Part shown: piece by piece, positions 14,579-60,684 of the stretch
Layout: each line of letters begins with the position of its first letter
Position numbering within the stretch: position 1 is the stretch's first letter
NCBI RefSeq assembly: GCF_009392895.1
Contig: NZ_CP045488.1
Coordinates: 1,116,001 to 1,180,000 of the forward strand
Direction: 5' to 3'
DNA length: 64,000 bases
From: Natronorubrum aibiense
GTDB lineage: Archaea; Halobacteriota; Halobacteria; Halobacteriales; Natrialbaceae
The notes under the pieces: model-generated
What the model saw: the letters and a program-made list of their open reading frames with translations, nothing else
Told to the model about the DNA's origin: nothing
The model's database searches: none
Program-made: the position numbers and the translations under genes

Positions 14579-15139
14579 TTACTCGAGTAAGCCGAGGTCT
14601 TCGAGCCGGGAGACGATCTTGTCGACGGCGTGTTCGGCGTCTTTCGGCTTCTTGCCGCCAGTAATAACGAGTTTCCCGGAGCCAAACAGCAGGGCAACGA
14701 CTTCGGGATCGTCGAGTCGGTAGACCAACCCGGGGAACTGCTCGGGCTCGTACTCGATGTTCTCGAGGCCGAGTCCGATCGCGATCGCGTTCAGGTTGAG
14801 GTTCCGACCGAGGTCGGCGCTGGTGACGATGTTCTGGACGACGATTTCGGGGTCTTCGTTGACCTGAATCTGGAGTTCACGAAGCTTGTCGAAGACGATT
14901 CGCAGGCTCTCGTGAACGTCGTCGGTGCTTTTGGCACCGGTACAGACGATCTTCCCCGATCGGAAGATCAGGGCGGCGGATTTGGGGTTCTGCGTGCGGT
15001 AGACGAGTCCGGGGAACTGTTCGGGGTCGTAGTCGGCCCCCTCGAGGTCCATCGCGACGCTCTGGAGGTCGAGTTCCTGTCCGATGCCGGTCGACGCCAC
15101 CACGTTTTCGATATTGATGGTGTCCTTCGGGTCGGTCAT
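14579..15139 (-). CDS. tbp: TATA-box-binding protein
   Basis: 186 residues, the normal archaeal length. Binds box A and recruits TFB and RNA polymerase. Two direct repeats of about 90 residues form the saddle; each holds an EQFPGLVYR motif and a SGK(I/L)V.TG.K strand (about 41-69 and 132-160). The N-terminus is a short acidic leader, and no extra domain is seen. Haloarchaea often carry several TBP paralogues; this copy has all the conserved features of the canonical one. A strong TATA box sits about 30 bases before the ATG, so the mRNA is probably leaderless. Confidence 0.97.
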   Translation of the reverse strand: MTDPKDTINIENVVASTGIGQELDLQSVAMDLEGADYDPEQFPGLVYRTQNPKSAALIFRSGKIVCTGAKSTDDVHESLRIVFDKLRELQIQVNEDPEIVVQNIVTSADLGRNLNLNAIAIGLGLENIEYEPEQFPGLVYRLDDPEVVALLFGSGKLVITGGKKPKDAEHAVDKIVSRLEDLGLLE

Positions 15140-15423: not shown

Positions 15424-16536
15424 GTGTACCTGCTCGAGCTTGGCGGCGAGGACGACGCGTTCGCAGCCCGTGAAGCAGCCAGCGGGGCGGCCGACGTCCG
15501 TCGAATCGCCCCCGGGCTCGCCGTCGCGACCGCCATCGACCCCGACCGAATCCGTGGATTAGCCTACACGCATCGTGCAAGTGAGTTGCTCGGCCGCACC
15601 GACGCCGATCTCATGAGCGCCCGCGCGCTCCTCGAGACTGCTCCCATCGACCGCAAGGGAACCGTTGCAGTTCGTGCAACCGACGTCCACGGCTCGAGCG
15701 GCGTCAGTACCGAGCGGGCCGAGCGCGAACTCGGCCAGATTCTGGTGAACCGAGGCTTCGCGGTCGACCTCGACGATCCGGATCACGTCCTTCGGGCGAC
15801 GTTCTCCGAAGGCGTCATCGAAGCGGGGGGGCGACTCGAGGCGGACGAAGCGACCGGTGCCCTGTTCAAGCCGGCGGATGCCGACGGTGCCCAGTCGATC
15901 GGCGAGTCCGTGTCGGTCTGTGCGCTCGGCTGGCTCGCCGCCGAGAGCGTCCGAGACTTCGGAACGCGCGCGCCGACGGACAAACCCTTCTTCCAGCCCG
16001 GGAGCATGGACCCGCTGCTCGCCCGCGCCGTCGCGAACGTCGCCGGCGCTCGCCCCGGTGCGACGATCCTCGACCCTATGTGTGGCACCGGCGGCGTGCT
16101 CGTCGAAGCCGGCCTCGTCGGCGCGGACGTCGTCGGAACCGACGCCCAAGCTAAGATGGTCGCGGGCGCGCGAGAGAATTTGCAATATTTCCTTGAGTCC
16201 GACGAGCCCTCTCCGACCGGCGTCGCCCGCGGCTCGTGGCACGTCGGCCGCGGCGACGGCACCCGACTGCCACTGGTCGACGACGCCGTCGATGGTGTCG
16301 TCTTCGACGCACCCTACGGCCGCCAGTCGAAGATCGAAACCCATCGCCTCGAGGATCTCGTCTCGGGCGCGCTCGCCGAAGCTCGGCGGGTCGCCCCGCG
16401 AGCCGTCGTCGTTGCAGACCGCTCGTGGGCGAGCGAGGCCCGCGCAGCCGGGTGGGAACTCGAGGCCGCGTTCGAGCGACGGGTCCATCGGTCGCTGACG
16501 CGGTACGTGCTCGTGCTCGAGCGCCGGTCCGTCTGA
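15424..16536 (+). CDS. trmG10: tRNA (guanine10-N2)-dimethyltransferase
   Basis: 370 residues, GTG start. Methylates G10 of tRNA to m2G and m2,2G. The N-terminal half is a THUMP-type RNA-binding domain (about 1-160). The C-terminal Rossmann methyltransferase has SAM-binding motif DPMCGTGG (about residues 217-224) and the catalytic motif IV as DAPYG (about 296-300), where most relatives have DPPYG. The GTG is chosen because the family begins with a YLLELGGE-like strand immediately after it. Divergent from tbp, so the 284 bases between hold both promoters. Confidence 0.92.
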   Translation: MYLLELGGEDDAFAAREAASGAADVRRIAPGLAVATAIDPDRIRGLAYTHRASELLGRTDADLMSARALLETAPIDRKGTVAVRATDVHGSSGVSTERAERELGQILVNRGFAVDLDDPDHVLRATFSEGVIEAGGRLEADEATGALFKPADADGAQSIGESVSVCALGWLAAESVRDFGTRAPTDKPFFQPGSMDPLLARAVANVAGARPGATILDPMCGTGGVLVEAGLVGADVVGTDAQAKMVAGARENLQYFLESDEPSPTGVARGSWHVGRGDGTRLPLVDDAVDGVVFDAPYGRQSKIETHRLEDLVSGALAEARRVAPRAVVVADRSWASEARAAGWELEAAFERRVHRSLTRYVLVLERRSV

Positions 16537-17178: not shown

Positions 17179-17273
17179 GTCGTCTCGTCACACTGGACAC
17201 GACCTTAACAGGATCGAGTGGCGTGTCCACACGGACCGCAACGTTTTTCCACCGACCGCCGGTTCCTCGAACT

Positions 17274-17360
17274 ATGGCACCCGAATCCCACACCAGTGCC
17301 GGTATCGACGACCAGTCAGACCGTCTGCAGTCGGGATTCGGCTTCTTTTTCGCCCGATAA
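17274..17360 (+). CDS. Phe-rich 28-codon ORF, candidate pheST leader peptide
   Basis: Short ORF upstream of pheS with peptide MAPESHTSAGIDDQSDRLQS followed by GFGFFFAR and TAA. Four of the last seven codons are Phe (TTC GGC TTC TTT TTC). The three consecutive Phe codons contain a run of five T (17346-17350), which is also a potential archaeal termination signal. A weak T-rich box at 17244-17248 is about 28 bases before the ATG, compatible with a leaderless mRNA. Two hairpins lie between this ORF and pheS (17375-17405 and 17430-17449). Regulation of pheST by Phe-codon translation, as with bacterial pheM-type leaders, is inferred; chance cannot be excluded from one sequence. Confidence 0.5.
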   Translation: MAPESHTSAGIDDQSDRLQSGFGFFFAR

Positions 17361-17374
17361 TCCGGGCCGGTGGA

Positions 17375-17405
17375 GCCACGTTCGCCCACGCCGGGCGAGT
17401 GTGGC
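17375..17405 (+). promoter_or_regulatory. hairpin between the Phe-rich ORF and pheS
   Basis: Arms GCCACGTTCGCC and GGCGAGTGTGGC pair at 10 of 12 positions around a 7-base loop. A second perfect 7-bp stem, GCTCGAG/CTCGAGC, follows at 17430-17449. Neither is followed by a T run, so they look like leader RNA structure rather than a terminator. Confidence 0.35.
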
Positions 17406-17497
17406 GAAACCGACCGAGCCGTCGACAGCGCTCGAGGCCAGACTCGAGCCGAGTCGGAACCGCTAACTGACCCCCACGCAGCCATACGAACAAGCGA

Positions 17498-19024
17498 ATG
17501 CAACTTCCAGCACAACAGGTCGCGGTCTTGGAGGCCGCAAGCGCGGACGACGCAACGTCCGTCGACGCCCTCGCCGCGGCGACCGACCTGCCACCGGAGA
17601 CCGTCACCGGGGCAGTGTTCGAACTCGAGGACGAGGAACTGGTCGCCGTCACCGAACGCGTCGACGAAACCGTCTCACTCACCGACGAAGGTCGGGAGTA
17701 CGCCACCGATGGACTCCCCGAAGTCCGGCTCTACGAGGCCGCACTCGAGGCCGGGGCCGGCGACGAACCGGTCCAGATGGGCCGCGTGATCGGAGCCTCG
17801 GGACTCGAGGGGCCACAGGTCGACATCGCGCTCTCGAACTACGCCCGCAAGGGCTACGGCAGCATCGACAGCGGCGAAATCACGGCCGATCCCGACGCCG
17901 AGCCGGCTTCGGATGCGGAGGCGAACGCACTCACCGAACTCGTCGACGCCGACGATACACCGGTCGAGAGCGTCGACATCGACGCGGAGACGCTCGAGGA
18001 ACTCGAGCGACGGGGTCTGCTCAAGCGCTCGGAGTCGACCGTCCGCGAAGTGACGCTGACGGATGCCGCCGTCACGGAGCTCATGGCAGGGCTCGAAACC
18101 GCCGAGACGGTCGGGCAGGTCACGCCCGAACTCCTGACCAGCGGGGAGTGGGAGGACGTCGAGTTCGCCGAGTACAACGTCGAGGCCGACGCCGAGACCG
18201 TCGAAGGCGGCAACGTACACATCCTGCGCCAGATGTCCGAGCGCGTCAAGGACGTGCTCGTCGGGATGGGCTTTCAGGAGATGGACGGCCCGCACGTCGA
18301 TGCAGACTTCTGGATCAACGACTGTCTATTCATGCCACAGGACCATCCCGCTCGCACGCACTGGGATCGATTCGCCCTGGAGCAGCCGAGTCACATCGAC
18401 GAACTGCCCGAGGACCTCGTCGAGCGCGTCGAACGCGCCCACCGCGAGGGCGTCGGCGAGGACAGCGAAGGCTACCACTCGCCGTGGGACGAGGACTTCG
18501 CCCGCGCGCTCGCGCTTCGGGGCCACACGACGTCGCTGTCGACTCGCTACCTCTCCGGCACCCAGATCGGCGAGATCGAACCGCCAGCGCGATTTTTCAG
18601 CGTCGAGAAAGCCTACCGTAACGACACGCTCGACGCGACGCACCTGCTCGAGTTCTACCAGATCGAGGGCTGGGTGATGGCCGAAGATCTCTCGGTGCGC
18701 GATCTGATGGGCACGTTCGAGGAGTTCTACGCCCAGTTCGGCATCACCGACATCCAGTTCAAACCCCACTACAACCCCTACACGGAGCCGTCGTTCGAGC
18801 TGTTCGGCACTCACCCCACCACGGGCGAACTGATCGAGATCGGCAACTCGGGTATCTTCCGCGAGGAGATGCTCGAGCCACTCGGCGTCGACTGTGACGT
18901 GATGGCCTGGGGGCTCGCCTTGGAGCGACTCGCCATGCTCACGACCGGTGCGGAGGACATCCGCGACCTCCACGGCACGCTCGCCGACCTCGAGTTCCTG
19001 CGGAACGCGGAGGTGACCTACTGA
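17498..19024 (+). CDS. pheS: phenylalanine--tRNA ligase alpha subunit
   Basis: 508 residues, archaeal/eukaryotic length. The catalytic subunit charges tRNA-Phe. The N-terminal part (about 1-170) holds winged-helix domains as in the archaeal-eukaryotic type. The class II core carries motif 2 (RNDTLDATHLLEFYQIEGW), FKPHYNPYTEPSFE and motif 3 ending in WGLALERLAML. The stop overlaps the start of pheT by one base (TGATG at 19022-19026), so the two are translated as an operon. A Phe-rich short ORF lies 137 bases upstream. Confidence 0.97.
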   Translation: MQLPAQQVAVLEAASADDATSVDALAAATDLPPETVTGAVFELEDEELVAVTERVDETVSLTDEGREYATDGLPEVRLYEAALEAGAGDEPVQMGRVIGASGLEGPQVDIALSNYARKGYGSIDSGEITADPDAEPASDAEANALTELVDADDTPVESVDIDAETLEELERRGLLKRSESTVREVTLTDAAVTELMAGLETAETVGQVTPELLTSGEWEDVEFAEYNVEADAETVEGGNVHILRQMSERVKDVLVGMGFQEMDGPHVDADFWINDCLFMPQDHPARTHWDRFALEQPSHIDELPEDLVERVERAHREGVGEDSEGYHSPWDEDFARALALRGHTTSLSTRYLSGTQIGEIEPPARFFSVEKAYRNDTLDATHLLEFYQIEGWVMAEDLSVRDLMGTFEEFYAQFGITDIQFKPHYNPYTEPSFELFGTHPTTGELIEIGNSGIFREEMLEPLGVDCDVMAWGLALERLAMLTTGAEDIRDLHGTLADLEFLRNAEVTY

Positions 19025-20790
19025 TGCCCACTGTCGATATCGACCCCGACGAACTGCGCGAGTTGACCGGCCACGAGGAGACGAGCGACGACGACCTCAA
19101 AACGGACCTGTTCGGACTCGGCCTCGAGTTCGAGGGACGCACCGAAGACGGCGAGTTCGAACTCGAGTTCGCCCCCGACCGCCTCGACCGGCTCTCGGTC
19201 GAAGGCGTCGCGCGCTCGCTTCGCTACCAGTACGGCGACGCCCGCGGCGTCCACGTCCCGTCACCGAACGCGGCAGAGTGGACCATCGAGGTCGACGAGT
19301 CGGTCCCCGACGACCGGCCCTACGTCACGGGCGCGGTAATCCGCGACGTGAACCTCGACGAAGACGCCCTCGACTCGCTCATCCAGCTGCAAGAAAAGCT
19401 CCACGCGACGATGGGCCGCAAGCGCGCGAAGGGCGCGATCGGGATTCACGACCTGACGATGCTGAAAGGGCGGTCCGCCACGGACGACGGCACGCCGTCG
19501 ATCGAGTACGTCGGCGTCGACCCCGACGGCGATCGGTTCGTCCCCCTCGATTCCGACGAGGAGATGACGCCCGCGCAAGTGCTCGAGGACCACCAGACGG
19601 GCCAGACCTACGCCGACCTCGTCAGCGGCTACGATCGCTACCCCGCGATCTACGACGACATCGGGCTATTCTCGTTCCCACCGGTGATCAACGGCCGCCG
19701 AACGGAGGTGTCGACGGACTCGAGAGACCTGTTCGTCGAGATGACCGGCACCGACCAGTGGACGATCGACAAGATGCTGAACATCGTCTGCTATGCGCTG
19801 TCGGCGCGCGGGGCGACGATCGAGGAGGTGACGGTCGAATACGCAGACAGCGAGGCCGCGAACGCGGCCTCGAACGGAAGCCGGGCGCAGTCCGGCGGAC
19901 GCGAACTCGTCCGGCCGGATCTCTCGACGAAGACGAAAACGGTCGCCCACGACCGCATCGAGACGATTCTCGGCATCGACCTCGACCCCGACGAGGTACT
20001 CGATCTGGCCGAGCGATCGGGCCTCGAGGCCGAAACGGACGAGACCGACGACGGCGACCTCGTCTACACGGTGACGGTCCCGCCATACCGTGTCGACGTG
20101 CTTCACCCGCTCGACATCATCGACGACCTCGGGCGCGCCTACGGCTTCAACGATCTCGAGCCGACTTACCCCGACGTGGGGACCGTCGGCGGCCGTCACG
20201 AACGCTCGCGCCTCGAGCGCGCCGTCCGCACCCAACTCGTCGGGCTGGGCTTCGAGGATCTGCTGAACTTCCACATGATCAACGAGGAAGAGAACTACGA
20301 TCGCCTCGAGCTGTCGCCCAGCGCGGACGCCTACGGGGCCGGCGAGCCCGCGACGATCAAAGAACCCTACAGCGAGGACTACACTATGCTCCGAACGTGG
20401 GTCATGCCGTCGCTCATGACGGTCCTCGAGCGAAACACCCACCGCTCGTATCCCCAGCACCTCTCCGAGATCGGATTCCGCGCGGCGCTCGACGACAGTG
20501 AGAACACCGGCGTGGGCGAGAGTCGCCACGTCGGAGCCGTGCTCGCGAGCCACGACGCGGGCTACGAGGACGCCAAAGCGCGCCTGCAGGCGCTCGCGCG
20601 TAAGTTCGACGTCGACCTCGAGACGCCACCGACCGACCACCCGGCCTTCATTTCGGGTCGAACCGCCGCCGTCGTCATCGACGGCGAGGACGTCGGCGTG
20701 ATCGGCGAGGTCCATCCGAAGGTGTTGATCGAGTACGACCTCGAGGTGCCCGTGGCGGCCTTCGAGTTCGACCTCGAGGCGCTGCACTGA
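19024..20790 (+). CDS. pheT: phenylalanine--tRNA ligase beta subunit
   Basis: 588 residues. Forms the alpha2-beta2 enzyme with PheS and holds the editing region (B3/B4, about 60-270) and the B5 domain (about 300-375, with TVTVPPYRVDVLHPLDIIDD). The C-terminal part is a degenerate class II fold (YPQHLSEIGFRAALD and SGRTAAVVIDGEDVGVIGEVHP). No B8 anticodon-recognition domain is present, as expected for the archaeal type. ATG overlaps the pheS stop by one base. Confidence 0.97.
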   Translation: MPTVDIDPDELRELTGHEETSDDDLKTDLFGLGLEFEGRTEDGEFELEFAPDRLDRLSVEGVARSLRYQYGDARGVHVPSPNAAEWTIEVDESVPDDRPYVTGAVIRDVNLDEDALDSLIQLQEKLHATMGRKRAKGAIGIHDLTMLKGRSATDDGTPSIEYVGVDPDGDRFVPLDSDEEMTPAQVLEDHQTGQTYADLVSGYDRYPAIYDDIGLFSFPPVINGRRTEVSTDSRDLFVEMTGTDQWTIDKMLNIVCYALSARGATIEEVTVEYADSEAANAASNGSRAQSGGRELVRPDLSTKTKTVAHDRIETILGIDLDPDEVLDLAERSGLEAETDETDDGDLVYTVTVPPYRVDVLHPLDIIDDLGRAYGFNDLEPTYPDVGTVGGRHERSRLERAVRTQLVGLGFEDLLNFHMINEEENYDRLELSPSADAYGAGEPATIKEPYSEDYTMLRTWVMPSLMTVLERNTHRSYPQHLSEIGFRAALDDSENTGVGESRHVGAVLASHDAGYEDAKARLQALARKFDVDLETPPTDHPAFISGRTAAVVIDGEDVGVIGEVHPKVLIEYDLEVPVAAFEFDLEALH

Positions 20791-53935: not shown

Positions 53936-56593
<2,658 letters not shown>

Positions 56594-58485: not shown

Positions 58486-59821
58486 ATGGCGAAACAGGTC
58501 GTCACCCGCACCTACACTGCTTCCATCAGGAACCAGTCACAGGTGCAAGACGACCTCGATTCGCTCGGGTTCTCAGCATCGAAACTCTGGAACGTCGGAC
58601 GGTGGACAATCAGTCGTGTCTGGGATGAAATCGGCTACATCCCCGAACACGACGAACTCACCGCGTACCTCAAGAGCCACGAACGCTACGATGACCTGCA
58701 TTCTCAGTCAAGTTCGTTCGAGACGGCGAAGCCGTCTCGTGATGCCAATGAGCTTCGCTCATTGAGCACAGCGCGTTCTTCAAGAACTCGCTGAAGCGTT
58801 CAACGGCTGGTACGGCAAACGACGCAACGGAGATACGAACGCGAACCCGCCCGGCTACCGCAAACACGGCGACAAACACCCACGTTCCACAGTCACATTC
58901 AAAGCCGCTGGTTTCAAACTCGACACCCAGTACAACCGCGTTCGACTCTCAAAAGGGTCGAACCTCAAGGAGTACTGGTCGGACTTCATCCTCTGCGAAT
59001 ACCAAACTCGTCCCGACGTTGACCTCTCCACCGTGGAGGGCGTTCAACAAGTCAGGGCCGTTTGGACAGGGGATGAATGGGAACTGCACTTCGTGTGTAA
59101 AGTCGAGGTCGAAGTGTCCGAAGCACCGGGTGAGAAGACAGTGGGTGTTGACCTTGGCATCAACAACTTCGCCGCACTCGCCTATGAAGACGGTCACGCC
59201 GAACTGTACCCGCTGAACTGCCTGAAGCAGGACGACTACTACTTCAGCAAGCGTATCGCTCGCTGTGATGACTCTGGTTCCGAGCAAGCCACTCGGTTGA
59301 ACCAGAAGAAGTCCGCTCGCCGCACTCACTACTTCCATACCCTCTCGAAACACATCGTTCAACAGTGTGTGGACGAGGGAGTTGGAACGATTGTGGTGGG
59401 CGACCTCTCCGGTATCCGTGAGGACGAGGAGAACGGCGAGTCGAAGAACTGGGGCAAGCACGGCAACCTTGACTTGCACTCGTGGGCGTTCGATCGTTTC
59501 ACCTCGATGCTTGAATACAAGGCCGAGATGGAGGGAATCACGGTTGAGCAAGTATCTGAGCGTGACACGTCGAAGTCGTGTTCGTGTTGTGGTCGCAAGC
59601 GTGACGGGAATCGTGTTGAACGCGGGTTGTACGTCTGCGACGAGTGTGGTACGGTGGCGAACGCGGACGTGAACGGTGCTGAGAACATTCGACAGAAAGT
59701 ATCTCCGAGTCTCGCCACGGATGGCGGTGATAGGAGTAACGGCTGGTTGGCACAGCCATCAACGTTCCTGTTTGACAAGGAAACTGGTGCGTTCGCACCG
59801 CAAGAACAGGTCACGTCGTAA
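58486..59821 (+). pseudogene. tnpB: TnpB interrupted by a double-hairpin insertion
   Basis: The first 75 codons (MAKQVVTRTYTASI to LHSQS, 58486-58712) and the rest from about 58768 (RVLQELAEAFNGWYGKRRNG onward, to 59821) are in different frames, separated by about 55 inserted bases. The remainder has RuvC-I Asp in VGVDLGINNFAAL, RuvC-II region VVGDLSGI with Gly at the canonical Glu position, zinc ribbon CSCCG/CDECG and RuvC-III Asp in ANADVNGAENI. A Glu in VSERDTSKSC may replace the missing one. Without the insertion the protein would be about 425 residues. Confidence 0.85.
58713..58767. repeat. double-hairpin insertion in tnpB
   Basis: Two perfect 8-bp stems with 3-base loops: GAGACGGC/GCCGTCTC (loop GAA, 58720-58738) and CAATGAGC/GCTCATTG (loop TTC, 58746-58764), 7 bases apart. 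The length (about 55) shifts the reading frame. Same layout as 1590-1635. Confidence 0.75.
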
Positions 59822-59875
59822 ACCACAATATCCCAACGCGGGAATCCTCGCCCTTCAGGGCGGGGAGGATGTCAA
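59700..59875 (+). ncRNA. candidate omega RNA of the 58.3-kb TnpB element
   Basis: End of tnpB plus right end. Stems GGCTG/CAGCC (59741-59745/59753-59757), CCTGTT/AACAGG (59767-59772/59805-59810) with an inner GGTGC/GCACC, and the terminal hairpin (59846-59865). Each of the three main stems has a counterpart with paired changes in the relic at 1830-1980. The guide after 59875 would match the pheA 3' end, i.e. the empty donor site next to TTAC. Confidence 0.5.
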
Positions 59876-60684
59876 TCGACGACGTGTTCGGTGTCGTACG
59901 AGCCGAGCCGTCGGACCCAGCCGTTCTCGGCCAACTCTTCGAGATCCTGAATCGCTTCTTTCGTCCGTGCTTCGTAGAGGCCAGCCTCGATGTCGATGTG
60001 GAAGACGTAGTCGCCCAACCGCTGCCCGCTGGGCCGGGATTCGACGCGCGTGAGGTTGATCTCACGGTCCGCGAAGGGCTCGAGCAGTTCGAGCAACAGT
60101 CCCGGGTAGTTCGCGTTCGGGTAGACGACGAGCGTGGACTTGCCGCCGCCTTTCGAGCGCTCCTCGGCGGGTGCGAGCGCGAAGAATCGAGTCGCGTTCG
60201 AGTCCTGATCCTGAATGTCCTCGGCCAGCACCTCGAGGCCGTCGCCGCCGTTGTCGGGGTGTCCGATACCGGCGATCGACGGGTCGTCGCGGGCGAACTC
60301 GACGCCCTGGGCGGTACTCGCGACGGCCTCGAGCGTGGCGTTGGGGTACTCGCGGTCGAGATAGGAGCGACACTGGGCCAGCGCCTGTGAGTGGCTGGCG
60401 ATGGTGTCGAACTCCGACCCCTGAGCGAGCAAGGCGTGTCTGATCGGGGTGACGATCTCGCGGACGACGGCGACGTCGTACTCCGCGAGCGCATCGAGGC
60501 TCTCCGTGACGCTGCCTTCGATGCTGTTTTCGATCGGGATGACGCCGCGGTCGTACTCGCCGCGGGCGACGGCGTCGACGATCGACGTGACCGACTGACG
60601 GAAATCGATCTCGTCAGCGTCGGCGATCGCCGTCGCGGCCCGGTGTGAGTACGTTCCTTCGGGACCGAGCGTGACTGCAGTCAT
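59872..60684 (-). CDS. pheA: prephenate dehydratase
   Basis: 270 residues. Converts prephenate to phenylpyruvate in Phe synthesis. LGPEGTYSH start, IPIENSIEGSVTESLD, catalytic TRF motif in NATRFFALA (about 163-171) and a C-terminal ACT domain (about 185-265, with ESRPSGQRLGDYVFHIDIE, the Phe-binding ESRP). No chorismate mutase domain is fused. Its TGA is provided by the right end of the TnpB element. Confidence 0.96.
   Translation of the reverse strand: MTAVTLGPEGTYSHRAATAIADADEIDFRQSVTSIVDAVARGEYDRGVIPIENSIEGSVTESLDALAEYDVAVVREIVTPIRHALLAQGSEFDTIASHSQALAQCRSYLDREYPNATLEAVASTAQGVEFARDDPSIAGIGHPDNGGDGLEVLAEDIQDQDSNATRFFALAPAEERSKGGGKSTLVVYPNANYPGLLLELLEPFADREINLTRVESRPSGQRLGDYVFHIDIEAGLYEARTKEAIQDLEELAENGWVRRLGSYDTEHVVD

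Follow-up and report, generated by a model that had tools for sequence, protein, structure and literature searches.

A short open reading frame (ORF) that ends in a cluster of phenylalanine codons was found to precede pheST in Natronorubrum aibiense and to be conserved before pheS in Halobacteria. This ORF is probably part of a cis-acting leader, in which the translating ribosome reports the supply of Phe-tRNA(Phe) and thereby sets pheST expression by attenuation. The analysis was performed on a stretch of 64 kb, here called the window, together with related loci from other genomes. The leader model is based on a conserved ORF with its frame, its Phe cluster and its position, on the spacing of a promoter-like box, on a helix inside the ORF (helix A), on a hairpin following the stop codon (hairpin 1) and on a parallel Trp leader at trpS.

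The leader ORF at the pheST locus

The leader ORF is located at 17274-17360 on the plus strand and its 28 codons encode the peptide MAPESHTSAGIDDQSDRLQSGFGFFFAR, followed by a stop codon. Coordinates and translation of this complete, Phe-rich ORF agree with the initial annotation of the locus, and so does the distance of 137 nt between the leader stop codon and the pheS ATG (17498). The identity of the two downstream genes was confirmed by family matches. The gene at 17498-19024 (plus strand), which would be the regulated gene, matched NF003210 with 607 bits and is pheS, the phenylalanine--tRNA ligase subunit alpha. The gene at 19024-20790 (plus strand), whose start overlaps the pheS stop, matched TIGR00471 with 432 bits and is pheT, the beta subunit. 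The peptide ends in GFGFFFAR and is Phe-rich as described, although Phe accounts for four of these eight residues and not for four of seven codons as was first given.

The Phe codons are found at 17337, 17343, 17346 and 17349 (Phe 22, 24, 25 and 26). The putative sensing codons TTC GGC TTC TTT TTC thus occupy 17337-17351 on the plus strand and include a T5 tract at 17346-17350. Each of the 68 leaders has three to five Phe among its last 10 codons. A total of 255 ATG-started ORFs of 15-45 codons were found on both strands of the 64 kb window, and the leader was the sole case with at least four Phe in the last eight codons. At the local Phe frequency, the probability of such a cluster arising by chance is about 8e-5 per ORF. 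A Pfam search with the leader peptide gave no match.

Conservation across Halobacteria

Eighty pheS loci taken from other haloarchaeal genomes were used for comparison. An upstream homologous ORF of about 24-48 codons with a terminal Phe cluster was observed at 67 of the 80 loci, and the typical leader peptide reads M[AP][PS]E[SP]...GFGFFFA before the stop codon. Among the 13 loci without a clean ORF, several are decayed (L055, L073 and L076), one is frameshifted (L052, a MAG) and others have no leader ORF at all (e.g. L029, L062, L065, L067 and L072). Elements were also located solely by the arms of helix A, without use of the ORF, and the ATG and the Phe codons shared the same frame in 60 of these 61 elements. 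The kept frame is strong comparative evidence for selection on translation of the leader. An alignment of related haloarchaea had been proposed as a check of the original suggestion, and in it the Phe cluster, the frame and the position upstream of pheS were all kept across Halobacteria.

The lengths beyond the leader stop vary freely, with about 100-220 nt between the leader stop and pheS across the loci, and the middle part of the leader peptide is likewise freely variable among homologues. The N-terminal peptide motif covaries with its pairing partner, MALES being found with GFDF and MAPES with GFGF, and the conserved N-terminus of the leader is accounted for by the base pairing of helix A. 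Conservation of the peptide beyond the needs of RNA structure and cognate codons was tested on the leader homologues and was not found.

Promoter-like boxes and transcript start

A BRE/TATA-like box, CGCAACGTTTTT, is present at 17237-17248 on the plus strand, corresponding to positions -37 to -26 relative to the leader ATG, and is the putative promoter (P1) of the leader transcript. The box has the form C-G-N-A-A-C-G-T-T-T-T-T, and its spacing to the ATG is constant and gap-free in 67 sequences, more than 90% of which have AA at positions -34/-33 and T from -29 to -26. A box at -37 to -26 has the spacing expected of a leaderless transcript, and leaderless mRNAs are common in haloarchaea. Judged from the P1 spacing, the leader transcript is probably leaderless, and the TSS map of Haloferax volcanii (PMC4983044) is in line with a promoter at P1.

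A further promoter-like box, P2 (GGAACCGCTAAC, 17456-17467, plus strand), lies 42 nt before the pheS ATG. The same position, exactly -42, was found for P2 in 44 of 81 loci. Several loci that lack the leader are among these, so P2 is probably a second promoter and the candidate promoter of pheS itself. Transcription of pheST from P2 could bypass the leader, which counts against control by the leader.

The dRNA-seq TSS map of Haloferax volcanii lists a 26-aa uORF with a pI of 5.9 in the 150-250 nt 5'-UTR of pheS (HVO_2948) and a 23-aa uORF in the 150-250 nt 5'-UTR of a trpS (HVO_A0127), with no second TSS for either gene (PMC4983044, Table 2). The uORFs are given there by length, mass and pI alone, and codon content, conservation, RNA structure and attenuation are unmentioned. 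The Haloferax leaders of the present study are mostly 26 or 28 aa long, and most of those with 26 aa have a pI of 5.94. No exact match to H. volcanii was obtained; the leaders of its closest relatives have a mass of 2792 Da, compared to 2772 Da in PMC4983044, at equal length and pI. The H. volcanii uORFs before pheS and trpS are very probably the same objects as the leaders described here. A transcript start downstream of 17360 had been named as an observation that would speak against the leader, and it is not seen in H. volcanii, where the 5'-UTR holds the uORF and no extra pheS TSS is listed (PMC4983044).

RNA structures in and after the leader ORF

In helix A, codons 3-6 of the leader are paired with the Gly-Phe-Gly codons immediately 5' of the Phe run. 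The 5' arm CCGAATCCC (17281-17289, plus strand) pairs with the 3' arm GGGATTCGG (17333-17341, plus strand), which overlaps the first Phe codon. Between 8 and 15 contiguous pairs were found in 67 of 68 leaders. In 52 aligned leaders, 97.4% of the helix A cells were paired, compared to 92.0% in shuffles, and sliding the partner by 1-3 columns reduced the paired fraction to at most 64%. Double-sided changes were observed at four of the nine pairs in these 52 sequences; examples of arm pairs from other loci are TCGAATCCC/GGGATTCGA, CCGAACACG/CGTGTTCGG and CTCGAACGCG/CGCGTTCGAG. The MFE fold of the window's leader includes helix A (z = -4.5). Helix A and the P1 box were both absent from the initial annotation.

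Hairpin 1 (17365-17415, plus strand) is composed of a lower stem (17365-17370/17410-17415), an internal loop UGGA (17371-17374)/GAAA (17406-17409) and an upper stem starting from 17375/17405. It begins 4-10 nt 3' of the leader stop codon. The internal loop is invariant, being UGGA or CGGA opposite GAAA (a GGA/GAAA core), and the stems covary. In 54 sequences, 84.6% of the cells were paired versus 71.1% in shuffles, and 86 double changes were counted versus 30 in shuffles. Loops of the GGA/GAA type form consecutive sheared G-A pairs, which is possible for hairpin 1 as well, and the GGA/GAAA loop is possibly a protein or tertiary-contact site.

With strict filters, a covariance model of hairpin 1, designated R1, matched 97 of 242 genomes of Halobacteria, covering 38 of 73 genera and nearly always with a single copy; hairpin 1 was found in all 15 Haloferax species searched (15/15). 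In the R1-matched leader loci that were inspected, the hairpin was always situated between the Phe-rich ORF and pheS, directly before pheS, and the few second or weak matches were without a leader. Hairpin 1 of the window scored 61.7 bits and is the single true copy in the genome. A role as a general element at other genes was rejected, as the next matches scored at most 26 bits and were within long ORFs or without a leader. When 197 genomes were drawn from the phylum, R1 matched solely members of the same order, and the matches were confined to Halobacteria in the genomes searched.

A small hairpin around the stop codon, GCCCG-AUAAUC-CGGGC (17352-17367, plus strand), was predicted in the MFE fold and competes with the lower stem of hairpin 1. 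It was 81% paired with covariation, in Natrialbaceae only. A second hairpin, GCTCGAG-GCCAGA-CTCGAGC with a CTCGAG repeat (17430-17449, plus strand), was obtained by folding, in a stretch that is variable between genomes and consists mostly of gaps in the family alignments. Both of the hairpins reported earlier before pheS are thus present, but only hairpin 1 is conserved beyond close relatives. Two other pairings were considered and rejected: one joining the 3' arm of helix A to the 5' strand of hairpin 1, for which covariation was absent, and one joining the middle of the leader (A2 columns 30-36) to hairpin 1, which was weak and GU-rich.

A Trp leader at trpS and other genes of the genome

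The trpS on contig C2 of the same genome is preceded by a leaderless ORF, MVSTSHANCWRWHASWEVDSGAV, followed by a stop codon (C2:24306-24377; L168:1335-1406). A leader with one to three Trp codons (CWRW, WRWW, WQWRW) was present at 29 of the 30 best Halobacteria homologues of this trpS. The Trp codons sit in the loop of a covarying helix inside the ORF, in which 93.0% of the cells were paired and six pairs showed double changes. A second covarying helix is found downstream of it, and the structure after the stop codon differs from that of the pheS leader. Phe at pheST and Trp at trpS, each the enzyme's own amino acid, form a pattern of codons for which an explanation other than cognate sensing is difficult to find. 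The link of the leader to pheST, originally suggested from position and codon content, is supported by the conserved position, and the Trp-rich sister leader at trpS makes sensing of cognate codons the simplest reading.

Strongly conserved, pyrimidine-rich stretches, GTAACCCG and others similar to GCTCACTCGCTTTCTC, are located 3' of the Trp leader ORF (A3 columns 100-140) and are possibly a termination or antitermination site. The trpS genes on Haladaptatus plasmids (L166, L167) have different Trp leaders, MYPSATAGGRFWPTTAH and MFAATTAGGRFWPTTAH, with a hairpin GTGGTCG/CGACCAC around a single Trp codon.

The chromosomal trpS of the source genome (L121) has no Trp leader. No cognate-rich leader was found in the source genome before the His, Thr, Leu (two copies), Ile, Val, Met, Pro-like, Cys-like and Tyr aaRS genes, nor before the trpE-like genes and the prephenate dehydratase gene. 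For these negative-control loci, gene starts were set by the reading frames, and the inspection was done by eye. The gene for prephenate dehydratase, which acts in Phe synthesis (about 60169-60672), and leuS (53945-56566) are both located in the window on the minus strand, neither with a cognate leader.

Comparison with known attenuators

The ribosome-mediated attenuator pheM-pheST of gamma-proteobacteria is the Rfam family Phe_leader. The haloarchaeal leader resembles it in the short ORF ahead of pheST with its cluster of Phe codons, in the RNA hairpins that come after this ORF, and in having codons cognate to the charging enzyme. It differs in that it is archaeal, in its leaderless ORF, in the location of the cognate codons partly within an in-ORF helix, in the lack of a U-tract terminator before pheS, in the GGA/GAAA core of hairpin 1 and in the lack of an Rfam match. 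Attenuation of pheST is mentioned as classical in PMC1262725. The trpS and leuS attenuators of Streptomyces, also classical (PMC1262725), share cognate Trp codons before an aaRS gene with the haloarchaeal trpS leaders, but they are bacterial, and their sequence and structures are unrelated to the haloarchaeal leaders as far as tested, with no covariance-model match. The T-box riboswitch of Firmicutes also senses tRNA charging at aaRS genes, but it does so by direct tRNA binding without translation, and no Rfam T-box match was found for the haloarchaeal leader. More generally, no Rfam family matched over the leader in the window at the gathering score, none that was relevant was found at E up to 10, and none matched in seven related pheS and trpS loci.

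The leader shares with attenuators of the bacterial type an ORF rich in cognate codons, the translation of which is predicted from the sequence, and covarying hairpins that overlap or follow these codons. For a shared transcript of leader and structural gene, the H. volcanii TSS map, with no second TSS, and the P2 box at -42 of pheS point in different directions. Mutually exclusive antiterminator and terminator folds are less clear. The candidate pairings at pheS lacked covariation, a candidate pairing at trpS between the 3' arm and a downstream pyrimidine tract was 91.5% paired versus 88.3% in shuffles, and the competition by the stop-codon hairpin is confined to Natrialbaceae. An intrinsic terminator (GC hairpin and U tract), a hallmark of the bacterial type, was not found between the leader and pheS. 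By analogy, the sensor appears to work like that of the bacterial pheST and trpS attenuators; the negative results for the intrinsic terminator and for the Rfam families are the reasons why the leader is not classed as a member of this group. Archaeal termination may not need a site made up of a hairpin and a U tract.

Leader-peptide attenuation is a textbook bacterial mechanism that needs coupling of transcription and translation, and archaea couple both. Peptide-based attenuation had been said to be little described in archaea, and this holds: the open-access literature, to which the search was limited, yielded no description of an archaeal leader-peptide attenuator, nor did the open-access papers searched describe a natural archaeal gene switch built on transcription-translation coupling. 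If the model is true, the leaders would represent the first conserved attenuator system of the leader-peptide type to be described in archaea and a concrete case of the ribosome on a leaderless mRNA acting as a sensor. It would also give a likely role to two unannotated uORFs of H. volcanii. With paired Phe and Trp leaders found across the class, and with these two uORFs in a genetically tractable organism, the question is directly testable.

Proposed mechanism and alternative explanations

In the proposed mechanism, P1 would start the RNA at or beside the AUG of the 26-30 codon ORF, and a ribosome would load on the leaderless end and reach the three to five Phe codons located towards the 3' end of the ORF. 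The footprint of a ribosome extends about 15 nt to either side of its P site. When charged tRNA(Phe) is short, the ribosome is predicted to stall at the Phe codons, where it would cover the 3' arm of helix A and stop short of hairpin 1, so that helix A would be held open and hairpin 1 would be free to fold. When charged tRNA(Phe) is ample, the ribosome would reach the stop codon with its front edge over the 5' strand of hairpin 1. From these alternative positions of the ribosome it follows that the RNA folds ahead of pheS would differ between the starved and the fed state. As to the direction of the response, the stalled state would most likely favour transcription into pheST. Read-through of transcription would be the output, with termination by a U-rich or an FttA/aCPSF1-dependent route and read-through on Phe shortage. 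The untranslated stretch from the leader to pheS is a plausible target of aCPSF1/FttA. FttA, an archaeal termination factor, has been proposed to police transcription-translation coupling, with a link of FttA/aCPSF1 to the loss of coupling (PMC11616081). The chances appear about even that the Phe leaders at pheST and the Trp leaders at trpS belong to one class of leaderless ORFs in Halobacteria, marked by cognate codons and in-ORF helices, whose members are true ribosome-mediated attenuators, with archaeal termination replacing the bacterial intrinsic terminator.

The main rival of attenuation of the P1 transcript is control of translation or decay. The sensor would be the same, but the ribosome on the leader would act through re-initiation or unmasking on pheS translation, or would control the stability or 3'-end processing of the mRNA. 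Hairpin 1 lacks a U tract and is strongly conserved, no U-rich terminator is found before pheS, and cleavage by aCPSF1 can make archaeal 3' ends when the RNA is accessible (PMC7515710, PMC11616081), all of which favour another output. The start of pheS, however, is not touched by a conserved structure or Shine-Dalgarno-like sequence in the pheS loci compared, and the 100-220 nt from the leader stop to pheS are long for re-initiation, so this reading is considered unlikely, with an appreciable chance of being right. A terminator within the ORF itself is improbable. According to this version of the initial proposal, helix A and the T-rich Phe codons directly 3' of it form an archaeal intrinsic terminator, which is blocked by a ribosome close behind the polymerase. 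U tracts do terminate archaeal RNA polymerase (PMC8116511), and TTT makes up 20% of the Phe codons in the leaders but 4% in pheS of the same loci, a 5-fold enrichment that accounts for the enrichment of T5. Nevertheless, a T run of at least five was found in only 35 of 68 leaders and 26 of 68 have no T run above three, so the T5 tract, suggested earlier as a termination signal, is enriched but not conserved. As T5 lies within the sensing codons, the polymerase would already be past it when a ribosome stalls there, and T5 alone can therefore not sense Phe. A scan of the window revealed no terminator-like U tract between the leader and pheS; the sole match was the Phe codons themselves, at the level expected by chance from shuffles.

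The remaining explanations dispense with the sensing ribosome. The ORF could be a stand-alone gene for a small protein acting in trans and located near pheS by accident, an option raised for such uORFs in PMC4983044 and in line with the promoter-like box of its own and with P2 apparently serving pheS. This is quite improbable, as base pairing explains the conserved N-terminal residues, the middle of the peptide is variable, the peptide has no Pfam match, the location before pheS is kept class-wide and a Trp counterpart exists at trpS. It is very improbable that the element is a structured RNA which regulates pheST through a bound protein, e.g. a ribosomal protein or PheRS itself, with translation of the Phe codons being irrelevant. 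The invariant UGGA/GAAA loop of hairpin 1 does resemble a binding or tertiary-contact motif, but retention of the frame, of ATG and stop codon and of the Phe cluster would be left unexplained, as would the Trp cluster at trpS with its different post-stop structure. Short ORFs are abundant in the window, as seen from the 255 counted above, and a chance ORF in GC-rich intergenic DNA might be expected; on the sequences compared, a chance origin is nonetheless ruled out by conservation, frame keeping and covariation, and its probability is negligible.

Other features of the window

A gene for a TATA-box-binding protein is located near pheST (14579-15139, minus strand) and is followed by a TIGR01177-like methyltransferase gene (15424-16536), which scored below the family cut-off. 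The Rfam family sot0042 (RF02656, sense overlapping transcript) matched at 59697-59866 of the window with 194 bits.
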